Assembly: GCA_019347795.1 (NCBI GenBank)
Contig: JAHWKS010000033.1
Location: 1 to 14,095, forward strand
DNA: 14,095 nt
Direction: 5' to 3'
Source of the DNA: Planctomycetota bacterium
GTDB taxonomy: Bacteria > Planctomycetota > Planctomycetia > Pirellulales > Pirellulaceae
Shown here: in pieces, positions 1,480-14,014 of the stretch
How positions within the stretch are numbered: the first letter of the stretch is position 1
Layout: each line of letters opens with the position of its first letter
Program-made: the position numbers and the translations under genes
Notes under the pieces: model-generated
The model's input: only the letters and a program-made list of their open reading frames with translations
The model's database searches: none
What the model was told of the DNA's origin: nothing

Positions 1480-1656
1480 TCTACTATTCCGCCGCAGCTA
1501 GTTTGCAACCATATCCAGGCGCATAAACGTGCTGCCCTCCAAATTTCCCCACTTGCCGGTCGTGTTCCATTATTCCGACAAATAGCGGGTGGCAAAAAAA
1601 AGGATCGCTCACAGTGGTGACGCTCACGGCAGCCGTAGGTCGAGCGCATTTGGGGA
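1480..1656 (-). other. Probable intergenic leader of the M48 gene, read through by the shifted helicase frame
   Basis: After correction of the frameshift near 1762 the helicase stops at 1657, which leaves this 177-nt stretch as the gap before the M48 protease. The peptide in the open helicase frame here has low-complexity, unconserved-looking content. On the minus strand there is a weak promoter-like pair, TTGCCA (1590-1595) and AATAAT (1569-1574). The spacing is only 15 nt, so this is a suggestion only. Confidence 0.35.
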
Positions 1657-4600
1657 TCAGGAGCGACTGAACCACGGTGAGAGATTGATGACCGCATCGC
1701 GCACTTCGCTTGGTTGCATCGTTCCCTTGCTGGAGAGAATGTCGATAAGGTCTTCTTGTCGGCTGACCTAGAGCGAGACGGTATAGTAGGCGCTGTTCGT
1801 GGACCCAGTGAAGCCAATGTTTCTGTTCGCTCGTTGGCACATCGAACACATAACGCTTTACGCCGGCGTCGGGACACACCCACCAAGGCGCTAACCCTGA
1901 CTCGTCGCTCATCGTCGCGTTCGCCAGCTCCTCAATTCGTGTCCACGGACTTGTGCCTTCGGCCAGCGTGTCAAATGCCTCTGCAGCCAGCCGCTTGGCG
2001 ATGGAACGGCGAATGGACAGGCCCCCAAAACGCTGGATGCGGCCCTCGCGTTGTTCCAGGTCAACTGGGTTGCGGCACAAGTCCCAATGCACAAGTGTGT
2101 CGCACCAGGTGTGGAAGTCGAGTCCTTCTTGGCCGACGGACGTCGTGGCCACCACGTACGGCCAAAAGGGCGTGTTGAACGCTCTTCGCAGTTCGTCGGT
2201 TCGGATCGGCTTCTCACCGTGCTCGTCGAGGCTTGCGACGCGCGCCTGCACAAACGGCAGCGCCACATGACAGCGAAGGGAAAACGTATCGCCGTTCTTG
2301 TCGCCTAGCGGGTGTAAGAAGAACAAGCCACTCTTGATGCTAAAGCCATCACGCAACTCCTCAGCAAGGTCTTCTTCTGAGAGGCTGCGAAGCCGCGATG
2401 TGATCCATAGGTGTTCATCAAGCACGGCTTCGAGGTTGCCCTCCACAACGGCTCGCTGAATCGCCTCTGGATACGATTCACTGCCGCGACGCAGGACGCT
2501 GTAAAACCAACGCTGATCGAGATAGTTTCGAAGCCCCGTCCATGTCGCGTCCAAGGTGTAGAAAAAGCCGCCCTCATCGACAGCATGTATCCAATGACGC
2601 CGGAGCGCGCGGCCAATGACAACCCCGGGTGCACCAAAGGCGTGCTCGACCAACTCGTTGAACACGGCGTGTGAAATCACCTCGATCGGTTTGGACGCTT
2701 CGGCATCCCAGTCGCGCAGCAGTTGTGCAAGCCCAGCGTCCTCATCGCTCGTCGCAAGTTTTTTCCTTTTTCTTATCTCTTTTAGCAGCACCCACCAGTT
2801 GTTACTAATCCAGTGCCACATGCCCGCGCGATTTTCCAGGCGTGCTAAAAGCCGCCACATCGGCAAATGCGGCGCTCTGTCGCGAACGACGACGCCCAAG
2901 TCGGTGAGCATCCTCTTGATTTGATGACGGATTTCACGACGAACATCGCTTGGCCGTTGACTTTTGGCGGTCAAGGGTTCGGTTGCCTCAACGAGCAGCG
3001 GCGAGGGATGAAACAGGCCCAACAGCGCTTGCCGGCCTTCGGTTGCCGCCAGCAGCCGCCGGCGCGTCACGTCTGCGTAGCCGAGTTTCTCGCTTCCCAG
3101 CGTTGCTGACTCAAGATCGAAGCTCAGCGCCGCAGCGATCGCCTGTGGAACCGCTCGGAACCGGCTGAACAACAGGATCTTAGAAGGCGTGTGCCGCTCA
3201 TCCTTCCAAATTCCGCGAAGCGACCACCACGGCGCGGTAGGAGGCAACCACGGCACACCCAGTTGCCGCGTCGGGACCAGTTCGCGCAATGCCCGGAGCC
3301 GGGGGTGCGGCCATAACTCGGGGCACTCAAAGCGATCACGCATGGCCTCATCAACGCGGACCGCACCATCGCTTTCGACAGATCGTGCGGACTTCCAGGC
3401 AACATAGTGGGTGCCCATCGTCTGCATGGGGAGCGGTATCGACGTCCAGTACGGAACAGCACTGGAACGATGCTTGTCGTCGAAGCTCTCGCACATGTGT
3501 TTGAAAATGGCCAAGTCCGCGCCAGCCACCTCGGCTTCGATAGTTTCCGTCTGCAGGTCCGCCCAGCCGTCGTCGTGCGAGGCGCGTTCCGTTCGCGCCA
3601 TAATTGGCCGAAGCAACTGCTCGACGTTTCTTCGTGCAGATTGTGCCTCACTCGACTTGGGCTGACCTTTCCGAAGCTCGGTTTCGAGGGCGAGGAAGGC
3701 GTCTTCGCACTGCTGCCGTTTCTGCTTTGCAGCCCCGTCACCGCCGTACAAGAATTCGACGAGTTCAAAGAACTCTGAACGGTGTGACGCACCAGCTTCG
3801 TCTTCCCAGCGACGAGAAAAAAAACGATACGGCGTCGCCGACAGCAGAAGGAGAGCTGGTGGATTAGCCACGTCGTCGCCACGAAGCCGACCAATGACCC
3901 GTCGCTCCGCTTCGTCGATGTCCGGATTCAGAAGGTCCCGGAATCGTTGAAACTCGTCAAAGATGACCAGGTCCGGCTGCACTTCCTCGACCGCACTGGC
4001 GGCCAGGGCATTGCGCAGGTGCGCGATGAGTTCGAGGTGGTCAAGGTCGCGGAGCACGGGCAAGAGCTGCTGGTAAGGCTGCAGGTTGAACTCTTGCCGC
4101 ACAGATCGCACAAACGCTTCACGCAACGCGGTGTTGCCTGCCTTTCCCCTTTGTTGCCTTACAGTAGACGTCCAGTGAACCGTCGCGCTGCGCTGAAAGA
4201 CATTCCGATTCCATTCGGTGAAGAAATGAGGCCAGGCGCGTTCGACCAGCGCGTGAACAAGGGCGCGTTCTTCCTGGCGACCGTCGCGGCTCTGCCTCCT
4301 CCGGATCGGTATCGAAGTATCCGGCGTCAGCGAATACAAGTGCAGTCGCGGGTGGCTGGGACGCTCGTAGGCTGGCAACAGCGAAAGTCGATCCACTTGG
4401 CAATCGGCATCGTAGCGCTCATTGGACGGAATTACTTCGAGCAGTTTTCGGCGGTTCTGTCGTGCGATTGCCAAATTGCTACACAAATAAAACACGACCA
4501 ATGGGCGCTCACGTCGGATTGTCATCCGTCGGATCACGTGTTGAGCTACGACCGTCTTTCCCAAGCCGACTTCATCTGCGACGAGGAAGCGACGAACGCG

Positions 4601-4669
4601 CCGCCGAACTCGAAACGCCGACATCACGGCGTCCACCGTCGCTTCCTGGAATGGCTTAGGAACGGTCAT
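1484..4669 (-). CDS. SF2/SNF2-like DEAD/DEAH-box helicase, third gene of the defence-like operon (frameshifted 3' end)
   Basis: The open frame encodes 1061 aa. The helicase motifs are: Walker A ADEVGLGKT (31-39), a DEFQ box (238-241), motif III-like LLLLSATPYR (273-282), and the C-terminal RecA lobe with QEGLDFH (from 847) and DLCRNPVDLEQREGRIQRFG ending near 883. These define an ATP-dependent SF2 translocase of the SNF2-like type found in restriction and defence loci. It is the last gene of a three-gene operon, 6 nt after the PLD gene. The 3' end looks damaged. After LALGQ (residue 969) the +1 frame gives RQEDLIDILSSKG and then VINLSPWFSRS with a stop at 1657-1659. The uncorrected frame continues with 92 Arg/Ser/Gln-rich residues to 1484. 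The intact protein would be about 1003 aa. The long central region between the two lobes is not recognised. Confidence 0.88.
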   Translation of the reverse strand: MTVPKPFQEATVDAVMSAFRVRRRVRRFLVADEVGLGKTVVAQHVIRRMTIRRERPLVVFYLCSNLAIARQNRRKLLEVIPSNERYDADCQVDRLSLLPAYERPSHPRLHLYSLTPDTSIPIRRRQSRDGRQEERALVHALVERAWPHFFTEWNRNVFQRSATVHWTSTVRQQRGKAGNTALREAFVRSVRQEFNLQPYQQLLPVLRDLDHLELIAHLRNALAASAVEEVQPDLVIFDEFQRFRDLLNPDIDEAERRVIGRLRGDDVANPPALLLLSATPYRFFSRRWEDEAGASHRSEFFELVEFLYGGDGAAKQKRQQCEDAFLALETELRKGQPKSSEAQSARRNVEQLLRPIMARTERASHDDGWADLQTETIEAEVAGADLAIFKHMCESFDDKHRSSAVPYWTSIPLPMQTMGTHYVAWKSARSVESDGAVRVDEAMRDRFECPELWPHPRLRALRELVPTRQLGVPWLPPTAPWWSLRGIWKDERHTPSKILLFSRFRAVPQAIAAALSFDLESATLGSEKLGYADVTRRRLLAATEGRQALLGLFHPSPLLVEATEPLTAKSQRPSDVRREIRHQIKRMLTDLGVVVRDRAPHLPMWRLLARLENRAGMWHWISNNWWVLLKEIRKRKKLATSDEDAGLAQLLRDWDAEASKPIEVISHAVFNELVEHAFGAPGVVIGRALRRHWIHAVDEGGFFYTLDATWTGLRNYLDQRWFYSVLRRGSESYPEAIQRAVVEGNLEAVLDEHLWITSRLRSLSEEDLAEELRDGFSIKSGLFFLHPLGDKNGDTFSLRCHVALPFVQARVASLDEHGEKPIRTDELRRAFNTPFWPYVVATTSVGQEGLDFHTWCDTLVHWDLCRNPVDLEQREGRIQRFGGLSIRRSIAKRLAAEAFDTLAEGTSPWTRIEELANATMSDESGLAPWWVCPDAGVKRYVFDVPTSEQKHWLHWVHEQRLLYRLALGQPTRRPYRHSLQQGNDATKRSARCGHQSLTVVQSLLIPKCARPTAAVSVTTVSDPFFCHPLFVGIMEHDRQVGKFGGQHVYAPGYGCKLAAAE
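1757..1770 (-). other. Apparent 1-nt frameshift in the helicase gene
   Basis: On the minus strand the codons run CTA GGT CAG (L-G-Q) and then an extra C (position 1762) precedes CGA CAA GAA GAC (R-Q-E-D). The downstream +1 frame is open for 34 codons, looks like an ordinary helicase tail and ends at 1657. Upstream of this point the +1 frame is closed by a TAG at 1768-1770, so the shift must lie within about 1758-1768. There is no homopolymer here to suggest slippage. A mutation or an assembly error is more likely than programmed frameshifting. Confidence 0.65.
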
Positions 4670-4675
4670 GATTGC

Positions 4676-6484
4676 TCACGTAACCAACTCGCGCCGAATC
4701 ACTTGCCACGTCTGATGAAACTCTTCAATGACTCGCTGTTCTGCTTCTGTTCGTTCTGCGTCGTCTTGCTCGCGGTAAAGCTTCAAGTAGTGCTGGAGCT
4801 TGCGGTCGACAAAGGCCAAGCTCCCCGGATCACGACTCCAGGACTTAAGAACCTCTTCGATGGTCGGTGCCCACCATACCGGCCTAGCCACCTGCCCCTT
4901 CGTGCCTTCGGTCTTGCGGCGGTCGGAGTCCCAATCACCGCCGCCATCGCCGAGGGGATCGCCGGTGAGCAATGAGCGTATCCATTGCAGGAAGGTGCGG
5001 GGGTCGAGATAGCGCGCCAACGCTTGGCGGTCCCGATCATCGTCCGGAGGCGGGTCCATTTGAGCGCGCTGAAGCCACGATAGTGCCTTGTCCTCTAATC
5101 GGAGGCAACACTGAATTAGTTCCGTTTGCTCGCCGGGGGCGACCTGGGGCAGTCGAATTGCCGAGGTATTCGGAGTCCATAAGATCAAGCTGCCCCCCAA
5201 AACCGCGACGTGCAATGTGATTTCCGAGTCGTCAGGATGTGGAGGAGCATCTGCATTGAGAAACGGAAGCTCGTCATTCAGGGTTTGCGTTACCGCCCAG
5301 CGGTTGGCCACTTGCTTTCGAGCTTCTTCCAGTCTCTCTTCAACCTCGTCGGGTTCAATTGGTGACGGAAGCTCGTCTAGTCGGACGGTGTTGGCCATGT
5401 CATGGACGAACACCTCCAAGCCGTGAGAGACGTCGCGATTGACGGCCGCCTTTGCGACGATTTCGATATTGGGACCGAACCACCCACGCTGCGTGGCGTT
5501 TGCGCTGCCGGTCCACAAGGTGTGCCCACCGGCGTGCTGGGCCAGAATCAATTTCGCATGGAGCCCTCGTGCTTCGACCTCTTCATCCTCGGACGCCGCA
5601 TTTTCCGACTCTGCTTCGTCCGACGCCTGTATGAAATCAGGTTCTGGCGCGTCCAAATACAATAATTCCGTGAAGCCGTTCAGCGGTTTTTCGCCCTGTT
5701 GCGCAACCTTGCTCAGCTCGGCCTGCGTCGAAATCAACAGGCGGCGCGTTCCTGCCTCGCCCCACTGTCCCAGACGACGAATCACCGTTCCATCAAGAAA
5801 CGGGCTGATGACGACCAGTTGCGTCAATCCGTCTGGCGGCGTCGGCAGATCACGCCCCGATGTTTCATTGCGAAGCACAACCTCGTTGACCCCGCAGCCG
5901 GCTGGACATTGCCAGTGAATGCCGCGGAGCTCCGAACGCAAGCGAGTCGGCGCAACGCCGGGGAGCGCTGCGCGCGTCGCGAGCTCGAATCCGAGTTCGG
6001 GGATGCCGTCGATCACGGCCCCTTTGGTTGCCTGACTCCCTACGAGCGTTAAGCCAATATCCCATGACATGCTGCGTGTCAGATTCCGGCTGCCAATCCA
6101 GAGTCGCCACTCGGTATTGTCATCGGACTGAAGTTTAACCAACGCGATCTTCGGGTGCCACGATGCCTCTTGCTCGTTGACGACCACCTCGCGAACATAG
6201 CGGTCGAGAATGGCGAGGATTTTGGGAGCCTTCGCGGGGGCGACGATGCGGCCCGCCTGGACGACAAGGCGGACGCGATCATTTAGCTGGTCAACGGCAT
6301 TGGCAAAATCGACTTTGCTGCCCGAGCCTCGGTCGTCGTCCAGGCCGGCGAGTGCAAGCAGCACCGCAACCAACGCCACCAAATCGGCCGAGTAACTGGC
6401 CAACAGCGCATGCTCGACGTGCCAACCAGGTTCGGGTCGCAGCGCGTCAAGGTAAGGGATGCTAGGCCATTTTTTGTCACTCAT
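4676..6484 (-). CDS. Phospholipase D-like (HKD-motif) protein, second gene of the operon
   Basis: This 602-aa protein starts at the ATG that overlaps the upstream stop (ATGA at 6481-6484). A longer in-frame start at 6628 lies inside the upstream gene and gives an unlikely, composition-shifted extension. Two PLD half-sites are visible: H-x-K at 110-112 (SWHPK) followed by GSRNLT (131-136), and H-x-K at 309-311 (GLHAK) followed by GSANAT (326-331) and NIE. Both lack the usual Asp after HxK, as is common in PLD-type nucleases of restriction systems. The two halves are separated by an acidic linker (about 289-305). In the PLD superfamily the two histidines form one active site that cleaves phosphodiesters, so nuclease activity against DNA is the likely role, inferred from context with a helicase. 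The roughly 250 C-terminal residues are not recognised. Confidence 0.85.
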   Translation of the reverse strand: MSDKKWPSIPYLDALRPEPGWHVEHALLASYSADLVALVAVLLALAGLDDDRGSGSKVDFANAVDQLNDRVRLVVQAGRIVAPAKAPKILAILDRYVREVVVNEQEASWHPKIALVKLQSDDNTEWRLWIGSRNLTRSMSWDIGLTLVGSQATKGAVIDGIPELGFELATRAALPGVAPTRLRSELRGIHWQCPAGCGVNEVVLRNETSGRDLPTPPDGLTQLVVISPFLDGTVIRRLGQWGEAGTRRLLISTQAELSKVAQQGEKPLNGFTELLYLDAPEPDFIQASDEAESENAASEDEEVEARGLHAKLILAQHAGGHTLWTGSANATQRGWFGPNIEIVAKAAVNRDVSHGLEVFVHDMANTVRLDELPSPIEPDEVEERLEEARKQVANRWAVTQTLNDELPFLNADAPPHPDDSEITLHVAVLGGSLILWTPNTSAIRLPQVAPGEQTELIQCCLRLEDKALSWLQRAQMDPPPDDDRDRQALARYLDPRTFLQWIRSLLTGDPLGDGGGDWDSDRRKTEGTKGQVARPVWWAPTIEEVLKSWSRDPGSLAFVDRKLQHYLKLYREQDDAERTEAEQRVIEEFHQTWQVIRRELVT

Positions 6485-7698
6485 GCTGCACCATTCACGT
6501 CCATCAGCAGTTGCCGCACATTTCCCCAACGAAAATGTAACGGAGTCGCTGTTGGATGTTCGTCCGGGTTCCATTCGAGCCGTTTCTCTCGGCCCGCTAG
6601 GCTGCGACTCAAGCGGGCACGCCGCCACTTGCGCCCGAATTCAGCATGCTCATAAATGTCGTACAAGTCGCTGAACTGACGGCCTTGCCGATTCAGCCAT
6701 AGCTGCGTCGCCCGCAGGACTTTAAGGATGCCTTGATTGATGCCAGGAGCGTCATGCTGGATTTCTTCGATCTGCAGTTGCGAAGCATCGCTCCCGTACT
6801 CTTCGATGACCTTTAAAAGCTTCGCTCGATGAACGTTGTCGGTCGCAACCTCATCATGCCTTTCGCGCATGTTCTCGACGAGTGCCGCATAGATGGCTCG
6901 TCCGACGGCCGAAATGGCCGCTGCCTGGCGGGCACGGCGCAAGGCAACAACATCTTCGTCGTCCGCGACGTCTCGCACCTTGGATCCCCACATCGAAGTG
7001 CGGTCGGTCAATCGCACGTCATGTTCCACCAGGCGCGACATAAGCGACGGTACATTCTCCGTCCCTGGGCGTGACACGGCGAGAAGACACCCGCGAATGA
7101 ATGCCCTCTCTGTGGAAGCAAGGTCGAAGTTCAGCGGAGAGCTGAAATCGCTCCACTCCTTTGGCGGGGCTGGAAGGCTGGAAAAGATCGGCATCGCTTC
7201 TTCCAGCAGTTGCTTGTCGTCGTCGTGAATCCGCAAACCAGATGAGTTCCGGGCAATCGCCCGGTGAACAGATCGGCGTGACGGATAGCTTCCATCGGCC
7301 AGTGGTCGTAGAATACGCCACGTGCCCAATGCGGTCCAATAGACCGTTGAAGGCGGCTGGCTGGTCGCCTCCGGATAAGTCAGCTTGCCAATAATTCCAT
7401 GCTCGTTTGACTTGATGAGCCGGCCAGCCAACACGATTTCAGATTTCTCAAGCGCCGCCGATACCTGCTTTCGTTCGCCACGTTCGATTAGGCGAAGATA
7501 GAGCCACGGCACAAAGAGCACGTAGCGCAGGCGCGTGTGCAGCACCGAGGTTCCGGGAAAGAATCGATCTGCGTAGGCTTGGTGCAGGGCCAGGAACCCG
7601 ATCTCGTCGCGCACGCCTTGCACGTCGTCCCGCAAATGTGTTTCCGCGCGACGAAGCGCCTCTCGAGAAAGAAGTGTCCATCCAAGGCTCGGTTTCAT
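6481..7698 (-). CDS. DUF6361 family protein, first gene of the operon
   Basis: This 405-aa protein matches my memory of DUF6361: an N-terminal GWTLLS segment, then DEIGFLALHQAYADRFFPGT (31-50) and LRYVLFVPWLY (57-67), equivalent to the family's FPGTS...RARYFLFVPWIY core. No catalytic motif is visible, and the family function is not known to me. It is the promoter-proximal gene of the operon. The minus-strand upstream bases GGGGGA, 6 nt before the ATG, form a plausible ribosome-binding site. Its stop overlaps the PLD start by 4 nt (ATGA), which suggests translational coupling and a joint complex. DUF6361 proteins are, as I recall, usually encoded beside PLD and helicase genes, which supports a defence-type role. 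The 150 nt upstream contain no convincing minus-strand promoter. Confidence 0.82.
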   Translation of the reverse strand: MKPSLGWTLLSREALRRAETHLRDDVQGVRDEIGFLALHQAYADRFFPGTSVLHTRLRYVLFVPWLYLRLIERGERKQVSAALEKSEIVLAGRLIKSNEHGIIGKLTYPEATSQPPSTVYWTALGTWRILRPLADGSYPSRRSVHRAIARNSSGLRIHDDDKQLLEEAMPIFSSLPAPPKEWSDFSSPLNFDLASTERAFIRGCLLAVSRPGTENVPSLMSRLVEHDVRLTDRTSMWGSKVRDVADDEDVVALRRARQAAAISAVGRAIYAALVENMRERHDEVATDNVHRAKLLKVIEEYGSDASQLQIEEIQHDAPGINQGILKVLRATQLWLNRQGRQFSDLYDIYEHAEFGRKWRRARLSRSLAGREKRLEWNPDEHPTATPLHFRWGNVRQLLMDVNGAA

Positions 7699-11450: not shown

Positions 11451-12122
11451 TCACATGGCCCGTCGCCATGCCAATAGTTTGCCGTCTGCGGGCCAGCGAC
11501 CAAGCCAACAGCAGGGCCAAAGTCCTTGGTTGTATGCTGCAAATAATCGTTCCCAGAAATTCTGGGTTCTTCCATTGAATGCCCGATTTTTGCAGCATTC
11601 CATCATGTCGCAAGCGATTTCATTGATGGCAAATTCGCGACAGTAATCAATGCTTCTATCTGGACCTTGAGGTCCAGCAGGAAGTATTTGCCGAAGGTGG
11701 TCGTGAAGATACATCGGACTGTCCGCTGTCCACTTTATAGCGAGGGACTTGCACTTGTTTATTTCAGCTTCGTGCTCGTGTTCCCAAGAATACCACTCCG
11801 TTGTCTGGATGTATTCAGCGATCAAGCTCCCGCGTAAACCCCCCCAACCCTCTTCGTCGCTCCAGTCGATTTCCCCGGTATGCGGCCATGTTTCGGGCGT
11901 GAGGATACCGTCGGACTTGTACGCAACCATGAATCGTGCTTCATCGCTTGCGAACCCTGCGGCGTCAACGGCCCTGACGAGATCGTTCGTCACGGTAATG
12001 TCGTCACGTTCTTCAGGCGGTCCAACACCGGCAACGATCCCGTCAGAGAACGTGAATTCCATCACCTCGCGAACCAACTCGCGGTTGGGACCGTGATATT
12101 CGAGTTCTTCGGGGACGCACAT
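11451..12122 (-). CDS. Hypothetical protein, 223 aa
   Basis: I do not recognise this protein. It looks real: it is acidic, with balanced composition and well-formed segments. Examples are MCVPEELEYHG at the start, a Trp-rich middle (IDWSDEEGWGGL, TTEWYSWEHEHEAEI) and an ending FAAYNQGLWPCCWLGRWPAD that resembles a conserved C-terminal PCGW-like strand seen in unrelated hypothetical proteins. It has no signal peptide or membrane segment, so it is probably cytoplasmic. The ATG at 12122 has no good ribosome-binding site. The frame stays open upstream with plausible residues (RHIV before M), but no better start codon was found. It lies 99 nt downstream of the antitoxin-like gene on the same strand. 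A role as a stress or immunity-type accessory protein would be a guess. Confidence 0.65.
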   Translation of the reverse strand: MCVPEELEYHGPNRELVREVMEFTFSDGIVAGVGPPEERDDITVTNDLVRAVDAAGFASDEARFMVAYKSDGILTPETWPHTGEIDWSDEEGWGGLRGSLIAEYIQTTEWYSWEHEHEAEINKCKSLAIKWTADSPMYLHDHLRQILPAGPQGPDRSIDYCREFAINEIACDMMECCKNRAFNGRTQNFWERLFAAYNQGLWPCCWLGRWPADGKLLAWRRAM

Positions 12123-12452: not shown

Positions 12453-12604
12453 GATTGCCTCCAAGACAATTCTCACATGCATCGCACGCGATCGCAACGC
12501 GAGCTGGCTAAGAATCATTCGGCAAGTGGCCGCACGGTGCCGCACGGTCTTGCTGTTTACCACGAGGGGCGCGGGCCCGCGGACGCCGAATCCTTTTTAA
12601 GAAG
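12453..12604. other. Gap after the GNAT gene
   Basis: This 152-nt gap contains a 12-bp perfect palindrome CGCGGGCCCGCG (12570-12581), but no T-run follows on the minus strand. No RYYYAAC/GTTRRRY pair of an attC was found here, so if GNAT is a cassette its own 3' attC is missing or degenerate. Confidence 0.4.
12458..12462 (-). promoter_or_regulatory. Shine-Dalgarno site that fixes the antitoxin-like start
   Basis: On the minus strand the bases read TTGGAGGCAATCATG: a perfect GGAGG five bases before the ATG at 12452. This is one of the best ribosome-binding sites in the window and decides against the longer ORF. Confidence 0.75.
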
Positions 12605-13102
12605 TCAGGCAGCGTCTGGGCCGGGCGTCCGAAGTTTCGTGGACACGGGTAGGTAGCCCAGCGCCTCGTAGAACCGCCGCGCTTCGGCGTTGACCTCGTA
12701 GACGTTCACTTCAACCCACGGGGCGCCCAAGCGGATGGCCCAGGATTCGACCGACCGCGCGAGCAGCTTGCCAATTCCACGACGCCGCCAGGCAGGATCG
12801 ACCACGAGAGCCTCCAGAACGCCCCATCGCTGTTGGATGAACACGGGGAGATCGGGCGCCGCTCGCATCCGACCGAACGCGACGCCCACGAGACGCCCTG
12901 CCTCTGCCACGAACACGGCCGAGTCCTCCCGGTTCAACAGGTCCGCGAAGTAGGTCTCGGATCGAGGCTGGTCGATCGGTTTGGTGAACATCCACGGAAG
13001 CCGGTCCCGGTGGAGCTCATCGAGCGCATCCATCAATCGACACACGCCGTCGTAGTCTTCCAACCGAGCGGGGCGAATCGTCGCTTCGTTTGAAGTCGAC
13101 AT
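12605..13102 (-). CDS. GNAT family N-acetyltransferase
   Basis: This 165-aa protein starts at the ATG at 13102, whose product begins MSTSNEATIRPARLEDYDGV, the usual GNAT first strand and helix. An open extension to 13237 runs through the attC site and is not coding. Motif A, which binds the acetyl-CoA pyrophosphate, is clear: LEALVVDPAWRRRGIGKLLA (97-116), with R-x-x-G-x-G at 107-111. The following WVEVNVYEVNAEARRFYEAL (129-148) is motif B with the conserved N..A..FYE. The substrate is unknown; GNAT proteins acetylate small amines, antibiotics or protein N-termini in the cytoplasm. The start lies 25 nt from the attC crossover point, as expected for an integron cassette. AGAGG, 12 nt before the ATG, may serve as ribosome-binding site. 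No second attC is visible after the stop. Confidence 0.9.
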   Translation of the reverse strand: MSTSNEATIRPARLEDYDGVCRLMDALDELHRDRLPWMFTKPIDQPRSETYFADLLNREDSAVFVAEAGRLVGVAFGRMRAAPDLPVFIQQRWGVLEALVVDPAWRRRGIGKLLARSVESWAIRLGAPWVEVNVYEVNAEARRFYEALGYLPVSTKLRTPGPDAA

Positions 13103-13126
13103 GCTGCGTGCTGCCTCTCTTCGTTT

Positions 13127-13210
13127 ACCTAACGCTCGCGTTAACCGGGCCGCGGTTAACGACATTGATTTCAGATCGCCGCGCGGCCCCGGTTGAACGC
13201 GTGGTTGGGC
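13127..13210 (-). other. Integron attC recombination site (84 bp)
   Basis: Read on the minus strand, the site opens with GCCCAAC (R'' box, RYYYAAC; 13204-13210) and closes with GTTAGGT (R' box, GTTRRRY; 13127-13133). Inside, CGCGTTCAACCGGGGCCGCG pairs with CGCGGCCCGGTTAACGCG to give an 18-bp stem with two extra bases (a C and a G) on the left arm only. Short unpaired spacers, CA and AGC, separate stem and boxes. The loop is 27 nt. This reproduces the known attC plan: R and L boxes, unpaired spacer, extrahelical bases on the L'' side, variable loop. The layout RYYYAAC-N5-GTTCAA...TTAAC-N6-GTTRRRY is the same as in the aadA attC. The orientation places the small ORF upstream as the donor cassette and GNAT as the next cassette. 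The crossover would fall between G and TT at 13133/13132. Confidence 0.82.
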
Positions 13211-13233
13211 ACTGGCAGTAGCATCCACGGAAT

Positions 13234-13647
13234 TCATGCCATGCCTAACGCGGCCAGTATGGCGCGCACTTGCAGTTGTGGCGAGTCATAAATGTGCAGT
13301 GTGAAATCCAACGGGCGCGGCGGCGTCAGCGAGACTCGCAGCCGCTGCCGCCTGCCGACTCGGGTTTGGACACAGGCTCGCGACAGCGGTAGTCGTCGAG
13401 GCCGCGAAGAAAATGTAGCGTCTCGCCAAGCAATCAGGCTAAGTAGGCAACCACGGCGTTCGGTGCGGTAGAACGAGAAGGTATGCTCCTCTTCGAACGA
13501 GGAATGGCGCGACCGACACGAGCATGCGATCTCGCCATCTGCCAGTTCGACGCGAAGCCATACGCGGCGTGGCGCGTCGTCATCCGACGCGAAGACAGCG
13601 CGTACCGCGTGTTTGTCATCGCGTACGGACCTCATCGCGAAAGCCAC
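13234..13647 (-). CDS. Hypothetical protein, 137 aa, probable integron cassette ORF
   Basis: I do not recognise the product. The start chosen is the GTG at 13647, which has AGAGGA (13655-13660) seven bases upstream. The frame is open to 13788, but that extension is composition-shifted and crosses an inverted repeat. An ATG four codons later (13635) is an alternative. Residues 10-50 look like a small beta-rich domain (VRAVFASDDDAPRRVWLRVE, then ADGEIACSC). The end LDFTLHIYDSPQLQVRAILA is also plausible, while the middle is Arg-rich. The stop lies 23 nt before the attC site in the same orientation, and the GTG lies 24 nt after a GTTGGGC box (13670-13676). This is the geometry of a short integron cassette of about 540 bp. 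Confidence 0.5.
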   Translation of the reverse strand: MAFAMRSVRDDKHAVRAVFASDDDAPRRVWLRVELADGEIACSCRSRHSSFEEEHTFSFYRTERRGCLLSLIAWRDATFSSRPRRLPLSRACVQTRVGRRQRLRVSLTPPRPLDFTLHIYDSPQLQVRAILAALGMA

Positions 13648-13654
13648 TTGAGCG

Positions 13655-13660
13655 TCCTCT
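13655..13660 (-). promoter_or_regulatory. Shine-Dalgarno site supporting the GTG start
   Basis: AGAGGA on the minus strand lies seven bases before the GTG at 13647. It is the reason for preferring this start over the longer open frame. Confidence 0.45.
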
Positions 13661-13669
13661 GAATTGCGT

Positions 13670-13676
13670 GCCCAAC
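13670..13676 (-). other. R'-box-like GTTGGGC, possible end of an upstream attC
   Basis: On the minus strand GTTGGGC matches GTTRRRY and is preceded by GTTCAAC with a 6-nt spacer, the same spacing as in the attC at 13127-13210. No matching RYYYAAC arm was found further upstream, so this is at best a degenerate or truncated site. Confidence 0.3.
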
Positions 13677-13707
13677 TTTGACGTTGAACTGACCATTGTA
13701 ACACCTG

Positions 13708-13729
13708 TAGGCTGCGGGTTTGCAGCCTA
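13708..13729. repeat. Short perfect inverted repeat
   Basis: TAGGCTGC and GCAGCCTA form an 8-bp perfect stem around the loop GGGTTT. There is no T-run on either side. It resembles the small dispersed hairpins common between planctomycete genes and lies upstream of the cassette ORF. Confidence 0.45.
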
Positions 13730-13980
13730 GCACGCAGTCGGTGGATTGGCGCAAGTCGCATCGTAGCAGCGGGTTGGTCCGGGCTCAATCATGGGCGCGG
13801 CGCGTGAGGATGTTTCCGGCCAGCGCTCAATCGCGGGAGTCCGGCTGCAGGCGGTCGGCGGGTTTCTGCACCCCGCGTCCGCCGCGGTTTAAAACGTGGA
13901 TGTAGACCATCGTCCAGCACTTCCGCGCCGATCACTGCGTTTCTTCAAGCGTCTGGTCCAGAAGGAGACGTGGACGAAAG
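13730..13980. other. Gap without a recognised gene
   Basis: About 250 nt lie between the short inverted repeat and the terminator. No convincing ORF, promoter or RNA gene was seen on either strand. Confidence 0.35.
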
Positions 13981-14014
13981 AATCCCGCCTGCCGGTCCTT
14001 CGGCAGACGGGATT
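13981..14014 (-). terminator. Rho-independent terminator of the gene at the right edge
   Basis: On the minus strand AATCCCGTCTGCCG pairs over 14 bp (one U-G pair) with CGGCAGGCGGGATT around the loop AAGGAC, followed by CTTTC. It starts 7 nt after the stop codon of the minus-strand gene at 14022. Confidence 0.75.

Follow-up and report, generated by a model that had tools for sequence, protein, structure and literature searches.

The three-gene operon on contig JAHWKS010000033.1 of a planctomycete of the family Pirellulaceae is almost certainly an Azaca (ZacABC) anti-phage operon, as judged from its protein sequences. The window, meaning the whole stretch of DNA analysed, is this single contig (C224; 14,095 bases) of a genome that is fragmented into 976 contigs and 72% complete. 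Taken together, the data point to an Azaca operon of a divergent clade, probably acquired horizontally and perhaps working via ZacC-licensed cleavage by ZacB; the probability of this overall reading is put at roughly 0.88. The locus is a genuine defence locus and not a new kind of one: only its membership and its clade are new, and it has been struck from the list of candidate new systems.

Assignment of the three genes to Azaca

The genes are tightly packed (Table 1), with an ATGA overlap at the zacA/zacB junction and a gap of 6 nucleotides between the zacB stop and the zacC start. All three proteins match the PADLOC models for Azaca: ZacA with an E-value of 8.5e-84 over residues 1-403 of 405; the PLD-domain protein ZacB with 7e-123 over residues 1-599 of 602; and the superfamily 2 (SF2) helicase ZacC with 7.3e-251 over residues 3-985 of 1061, the last part of which is frame-broken. 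Matches above the Pfam cut-offs are to DUF6361 (zacA; E 2.4e-15 and 56.9 bits, where the cut-off is 25 bits), PLDc_2 and Helicase_C/ResIII. The genes are adjacent, on one strand and in the order A-B-C in 20 of 22 loci examined with our own profiles, window included; the two exceptions (L061 and L070) both stop at a contig edge, and L070 comes from the same genome as L069, on a separate contig. Because the 22 loci were selected for encoding ZacA, and some were used in the profiles, this tests gene order and not independent co-occurrence.

Table 1. Operon features, in window coordinates
Feature	Coordinates	Strand	Description	Basis
zacA	6481..7698	-	DUF6361 protein, 405 amino acids, all-helical by prediction	Pfam, PADLOC ZacA
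zacB	4676..6484	-	PLD-family protein, 602 amino acids, two HxK..N half-sites in one chain	PADLOC, alignment, fold
zacC	1484..4669	-	SF2/SNF2-like helicase, open frame of 1061 amino acids, departs from the family sequence near 1755-1765	
natural zacC 3' end	1657..1758	-	33 codons QEDLIDILSSK...INLSPWFSRS plus stop, in a frame other than the rest of the gene	

The conserved residues agree with these assignments. In ZacB, both H-x-K...N half-sites (H110/K112/N134 and H309/K311/N329) are invariant in a 109-row alignment (query included) and again in a 34-row alignment with more distant rows. Residues 7-379 adopt a PLD fold by structure comparison, and the pair of half-sites probably makes up one active site inside the single chain. 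In ZacC, ADEVGLGKT, DEFQ and SATP (motifs I, II and III) show no variation across 27 rows, and QREGRI (motif VI) is at least 90% conserved. The conserved catalytic residues of ZacB and motor residues of ZacC are direct targets for testing the mechanism of Azaca. The structure model of ZacA has a predicted local distance difference test score (pLDDT) of 86. Weak likenesses were seen in two parts of this protein: residues ~5-51 (window 7698-7540) resemble phycobilisome linker proteins in profile comparison (best 6.7e-6), and residues 262-347 match the Wadjet JetA model of PADLOC (E 0.0016).

The Azaca system, composed of ZacA, ZacB and ZacC, is said to go back to Millman et al. in 2022. Among the 23 publications since 2022 that contain the word "Azaca", in a search that left most subscription papers and all bioRxiv-only preprints outside, no title is devoted to the system. 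The methods of one article name "Azaca (ZacC)" as one of the SF1/SF2 defence helicases (PMC12278908); a table in another, which cites Millman et al. 2022, gives a PLD-like domain for Mokosh I, Mokosh II and Azaca (PMC10952713); and a third locates Azaca in a Pseudomonas genomic-island hotspot (PMC12629846). The identification as Azaca follows from the nearly full-length match of all three proteins to ZacA, ZacB and ZacC, together with the literature placing ZacC in this system. The operon shares with Azaca all three families, the gene order, the tight overlaps and protein lengths near those of the models. It differs in the lower PADLOC scores of its clade and in the frame break of this copy: for ZacA, the window scores 280 bits and the Methylocystis parvus plasmid locus L006 283, as compared to 307-413 for nine other full-length copies of the phylum and 469 for L011; for ZacC, two members of the window's clade score 834 and 880, as compared to 1103 (L062) and 1190 (L011).

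A preliminary description of this DNA had reported a tight three-gene minus-strand operon with a DUF6361 gene, two PLD half-sites and SF2/SNF2-like helicase motifs, and no methyltransferase. Each of these observations holds; for the last, Pfam recognised no methyltransferase among the 11 window proteins scanned. The description had also taken the trio for a distinct module without a name, which the matches to ZacA, ZacB and ZacC overturn, ruling out a new, unnamed system. Its parallels with DISARM and Mokosh stand only as functional analogies, in that both combine helicase and PLD proteins. DISARM is defined by DrmB and a methyltransferase with DrmA/DrmC. Neither DrmB nor a methyltransferase is matched among the 11 proteins of the 14-kb contig, so that membership of DISARM falls; ZacC does match DrmD (4.1e-14) and DrmA (1.3e-11) weakly. 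For Mokosh, no model (MkoA, MkoC etc.) appears in the complete PADLOC lists of ZacA and ZacB, or in the best 25 of 28 families for ZacC.

Distribution, composition and neighbourhood

Protein searches (~8,000 scored candidates each) returned at least 1,088 relatives of ZacA, at least 874 of ZacB and at least 2,300 of ZacC, the last count possibly including other helicases. Within the phylum the distribution is patchy: ZacA is found in 15 of 392 genomes, own genome included: ten single-contig matches (starting at model positions 1-4 and reaching at least 393), one match divided between two contigs, a single partial match and three weak ones. ZacA also occurs in 42 of 72,556 plasmid records, nine of them matching over 80% or more of the query, all at less than 60% identity. 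ZacB has no match among 50,697 phage records, which speaks against carriage by phages.

A 17-row tree of ZacC suggests a deep split of Azaca into two ZacC clades; the tree is small and midpoint-rooted, the composition of four rows is unusual, and L009 has a long branch. The window groups with a Pirellulales metagenome-assembled genome (MAG), a Fuerstiella MAG and a Methylocystis plasmid (100/99), while G333, which belongs to the same family as the window, is placed in the second clade behind a branch of 1.75. Besides this genome and the Pirellulales and Fuerstiella MAGs, the window's clade takes in an Acidobacteriota MAG and plasmids from alpha- and betaproteobacteria. One conceivable, if improbable, extension is that this clade represents a separate Azaca subtype, spread between phyla by plasmids, whose ZacA adaptor would recognise a trigger other than that of the second clade.

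Base composition also sets the operon apart. Its GC content is 58.7%, as compared to 65.5% for nadD and 66.7% for the M48 protease gene that flank it, in agreement with the lower GC noted in the preliminary description. The mean over 17 readable stretches of the same genome is 65.2%, and not one of the 149 overlapping two-kb genome windows taken from them lies at or below 59.05%, the highest value of the three 2-kb windows of the operon. The operon was probably acquired by horizontal transfer. A conserved housekeeping site was considered and set aside. Among the 31 genomes of the family, own genome included, nadD is found in 28 and the M48 protease in 22, many of the latter weakly. Besides the window, G416 alone has both within ~6 kb of each other on a single contig, and there the arrangement is different, and therefore no empty site can be defined. 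The two flank stretches searched contain no direct or inverted repeats of at least 14 bases, and likewise no Rfam families or tRNAs.

The neighbours of relatives on the six plasmids read include integrases/recombinases, AbiE, a UvrD helicase with a PD-(D/E)XK nuclease, and toxin-antitoxin genes. At a PADLOC threshold of 1e-60, a first set of 57 neighbouring proteins matches DRT, Wadjet, pAgo, PprDinG, AbiE and Druantia models, and a second set of 57 matches BREX, DISARM and Shango. The control, unmatched for plasmids, consists of 85 proteins encoded elsewhere in six of these genomes, on nine stretches, and yields only reverse-transcriptase, PD-T4-6 and mad6 models. The defence role claimed at the outset draws support from the PADLOC matches of zacA, zacB and zacC, patchiness, plasmid carriage, atypical GC and the defence neighbours of relatives. 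The PD-(D/E)XK nuclease and UvrD helicase pair adjoins Azaca on plasmids of two genera (L006:21782-27549 and L009:8485-13493). In one plasmid the pair is downstream and shares the strand of Azaca; in the other it is upstream on the opposite strand.

The end of zacC

The main frame of zacC can be read up to GQP, at about 1760, and stays open from there to 1484. Three-frame translation beside the homologues places the family tail in a different frame, with a stop codon at 1659-1657 that ends exactly at the boundary, 1657, of the region first proposed as a candidate. All 33 of the closest homologues inspected carry GQPNQEDL in frame and end in LSPxF. Among the 119 relatives listed, GQPNQEDL is found in 95 and GQPxQ in 106; the remaining 13 are diverged there or shortened. 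As the homologues place the natural C-terminus at 1657, the zacC frame must change near 1755-1765, through either mutation or assembly error.

Broken Azaca operons recur. In L066, an open reading frame (ORF) that is transposase-like by eye (12826-14446) interrupts zacC. In L067, another such ORF (12479-13985) lies between zacB and zacC, and the end of zacC is in a second frame there too. These two relatives, together with the frame change itself, speak for reading the window copy as a remnant in decay that no longer functions. This is possible but doubtful: zacA and zacB are open and conserved, as is every helicase motif, and a small sequence error is plausible in an assembly as fragmented as this one.

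Possible mechanism and competing accounts

The mechanism of Azaca is given as unknown in a February 2026 review (PMC12926258). The arrangement favoured here, at a little under even odds, has three steps: ZacC would load on or track along DNA, using ATP; it would encounter DNA that is of phage origin or aberrant in another way, ZacA serving as a DNA- or partner-binding adaptor; and it would then license ZacB, the PLD enzyme, to cut that DNA.

Two other arrangements of the same parts are each unlikely. In one, Azaca would act by abortive infection: the helicase would sense damaged or phage-altered DNA and unleash the PLD nuclease on all DNA of the cell, as is reported of Hachiman. Hachiman (HamAB) follows a similar nuclease and helicase logic, its sensor helicase and effector nuclease degrading both phage and host DNA, according to PMC12278908. 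The lack of any recognised self-marking modification gene among the 11 window proteins is consistent with such indiscriminate cleavage. However, neither ZacA nor ZacB matches HamA in complete PADLOC lists to E 1, which excludes membership of Hachiman. Hachiman has two components as compared to three in Azaca.

In the other arrangement, Azaca would be a restriction system resembling SauUSI, in which target recognition leads to ATP-driven translocation and the PLD nuclease shreds foreign DNA only. SauUSI is an ATP-dependent restriction endonuclease with a nuclease and a helicase-like ATPase in one polypeptide. The likeness lies in the pairing of a PLD-type nuclease with an SF2-type ATPase, and in a fold match to one half of ZacB. 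In contrast to the three genes of Azaca and the two half-sites in each ZacB chain, SauUSI is built from two copies of one chain; it is not known to have a DUF6361 partner. In addition, the analysis of ZacA revealed no target-recognition domain.

Several results weigh against an intact Azaca operon that acts through ZacC-licensed cleavage by ZacB. The fold of ZacB is no proof of a nuclease because lipid enzymes, polyphosphate kinase and the vaccinia virus F13 protein match it too, F13 holding the top rank. ZacA finds nothing in the PDB at E<=0.001 and no informative solved relative. The window copy may be inactive because the zacC frame changes before the last 33 codons. At 0.001, PADLOC returns zero matches for the eight other window proteins. 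In the neighbour comparison, the control yields 22 model names at 1e-60 as compared to 21 and 20 in the neighbour sets, these numbers being equally high since a single protein can hit a whole group of related models; at 1e-10, the families number 125 and 87 (57 neighbours each) as compared to 85 (85 control proteins). No enrichment ratio is drawn from these counts, since the choice of proteins was made by eye, the control lacks plasmid matching, and families were counted instead of proteins.

Elsewhere in the window, a minus-strand ORF at 11451-12122, to which no Pfam or PADLOC model matches, encodes 223 amino acids at 53% GC, as compared to 65% for the genome.
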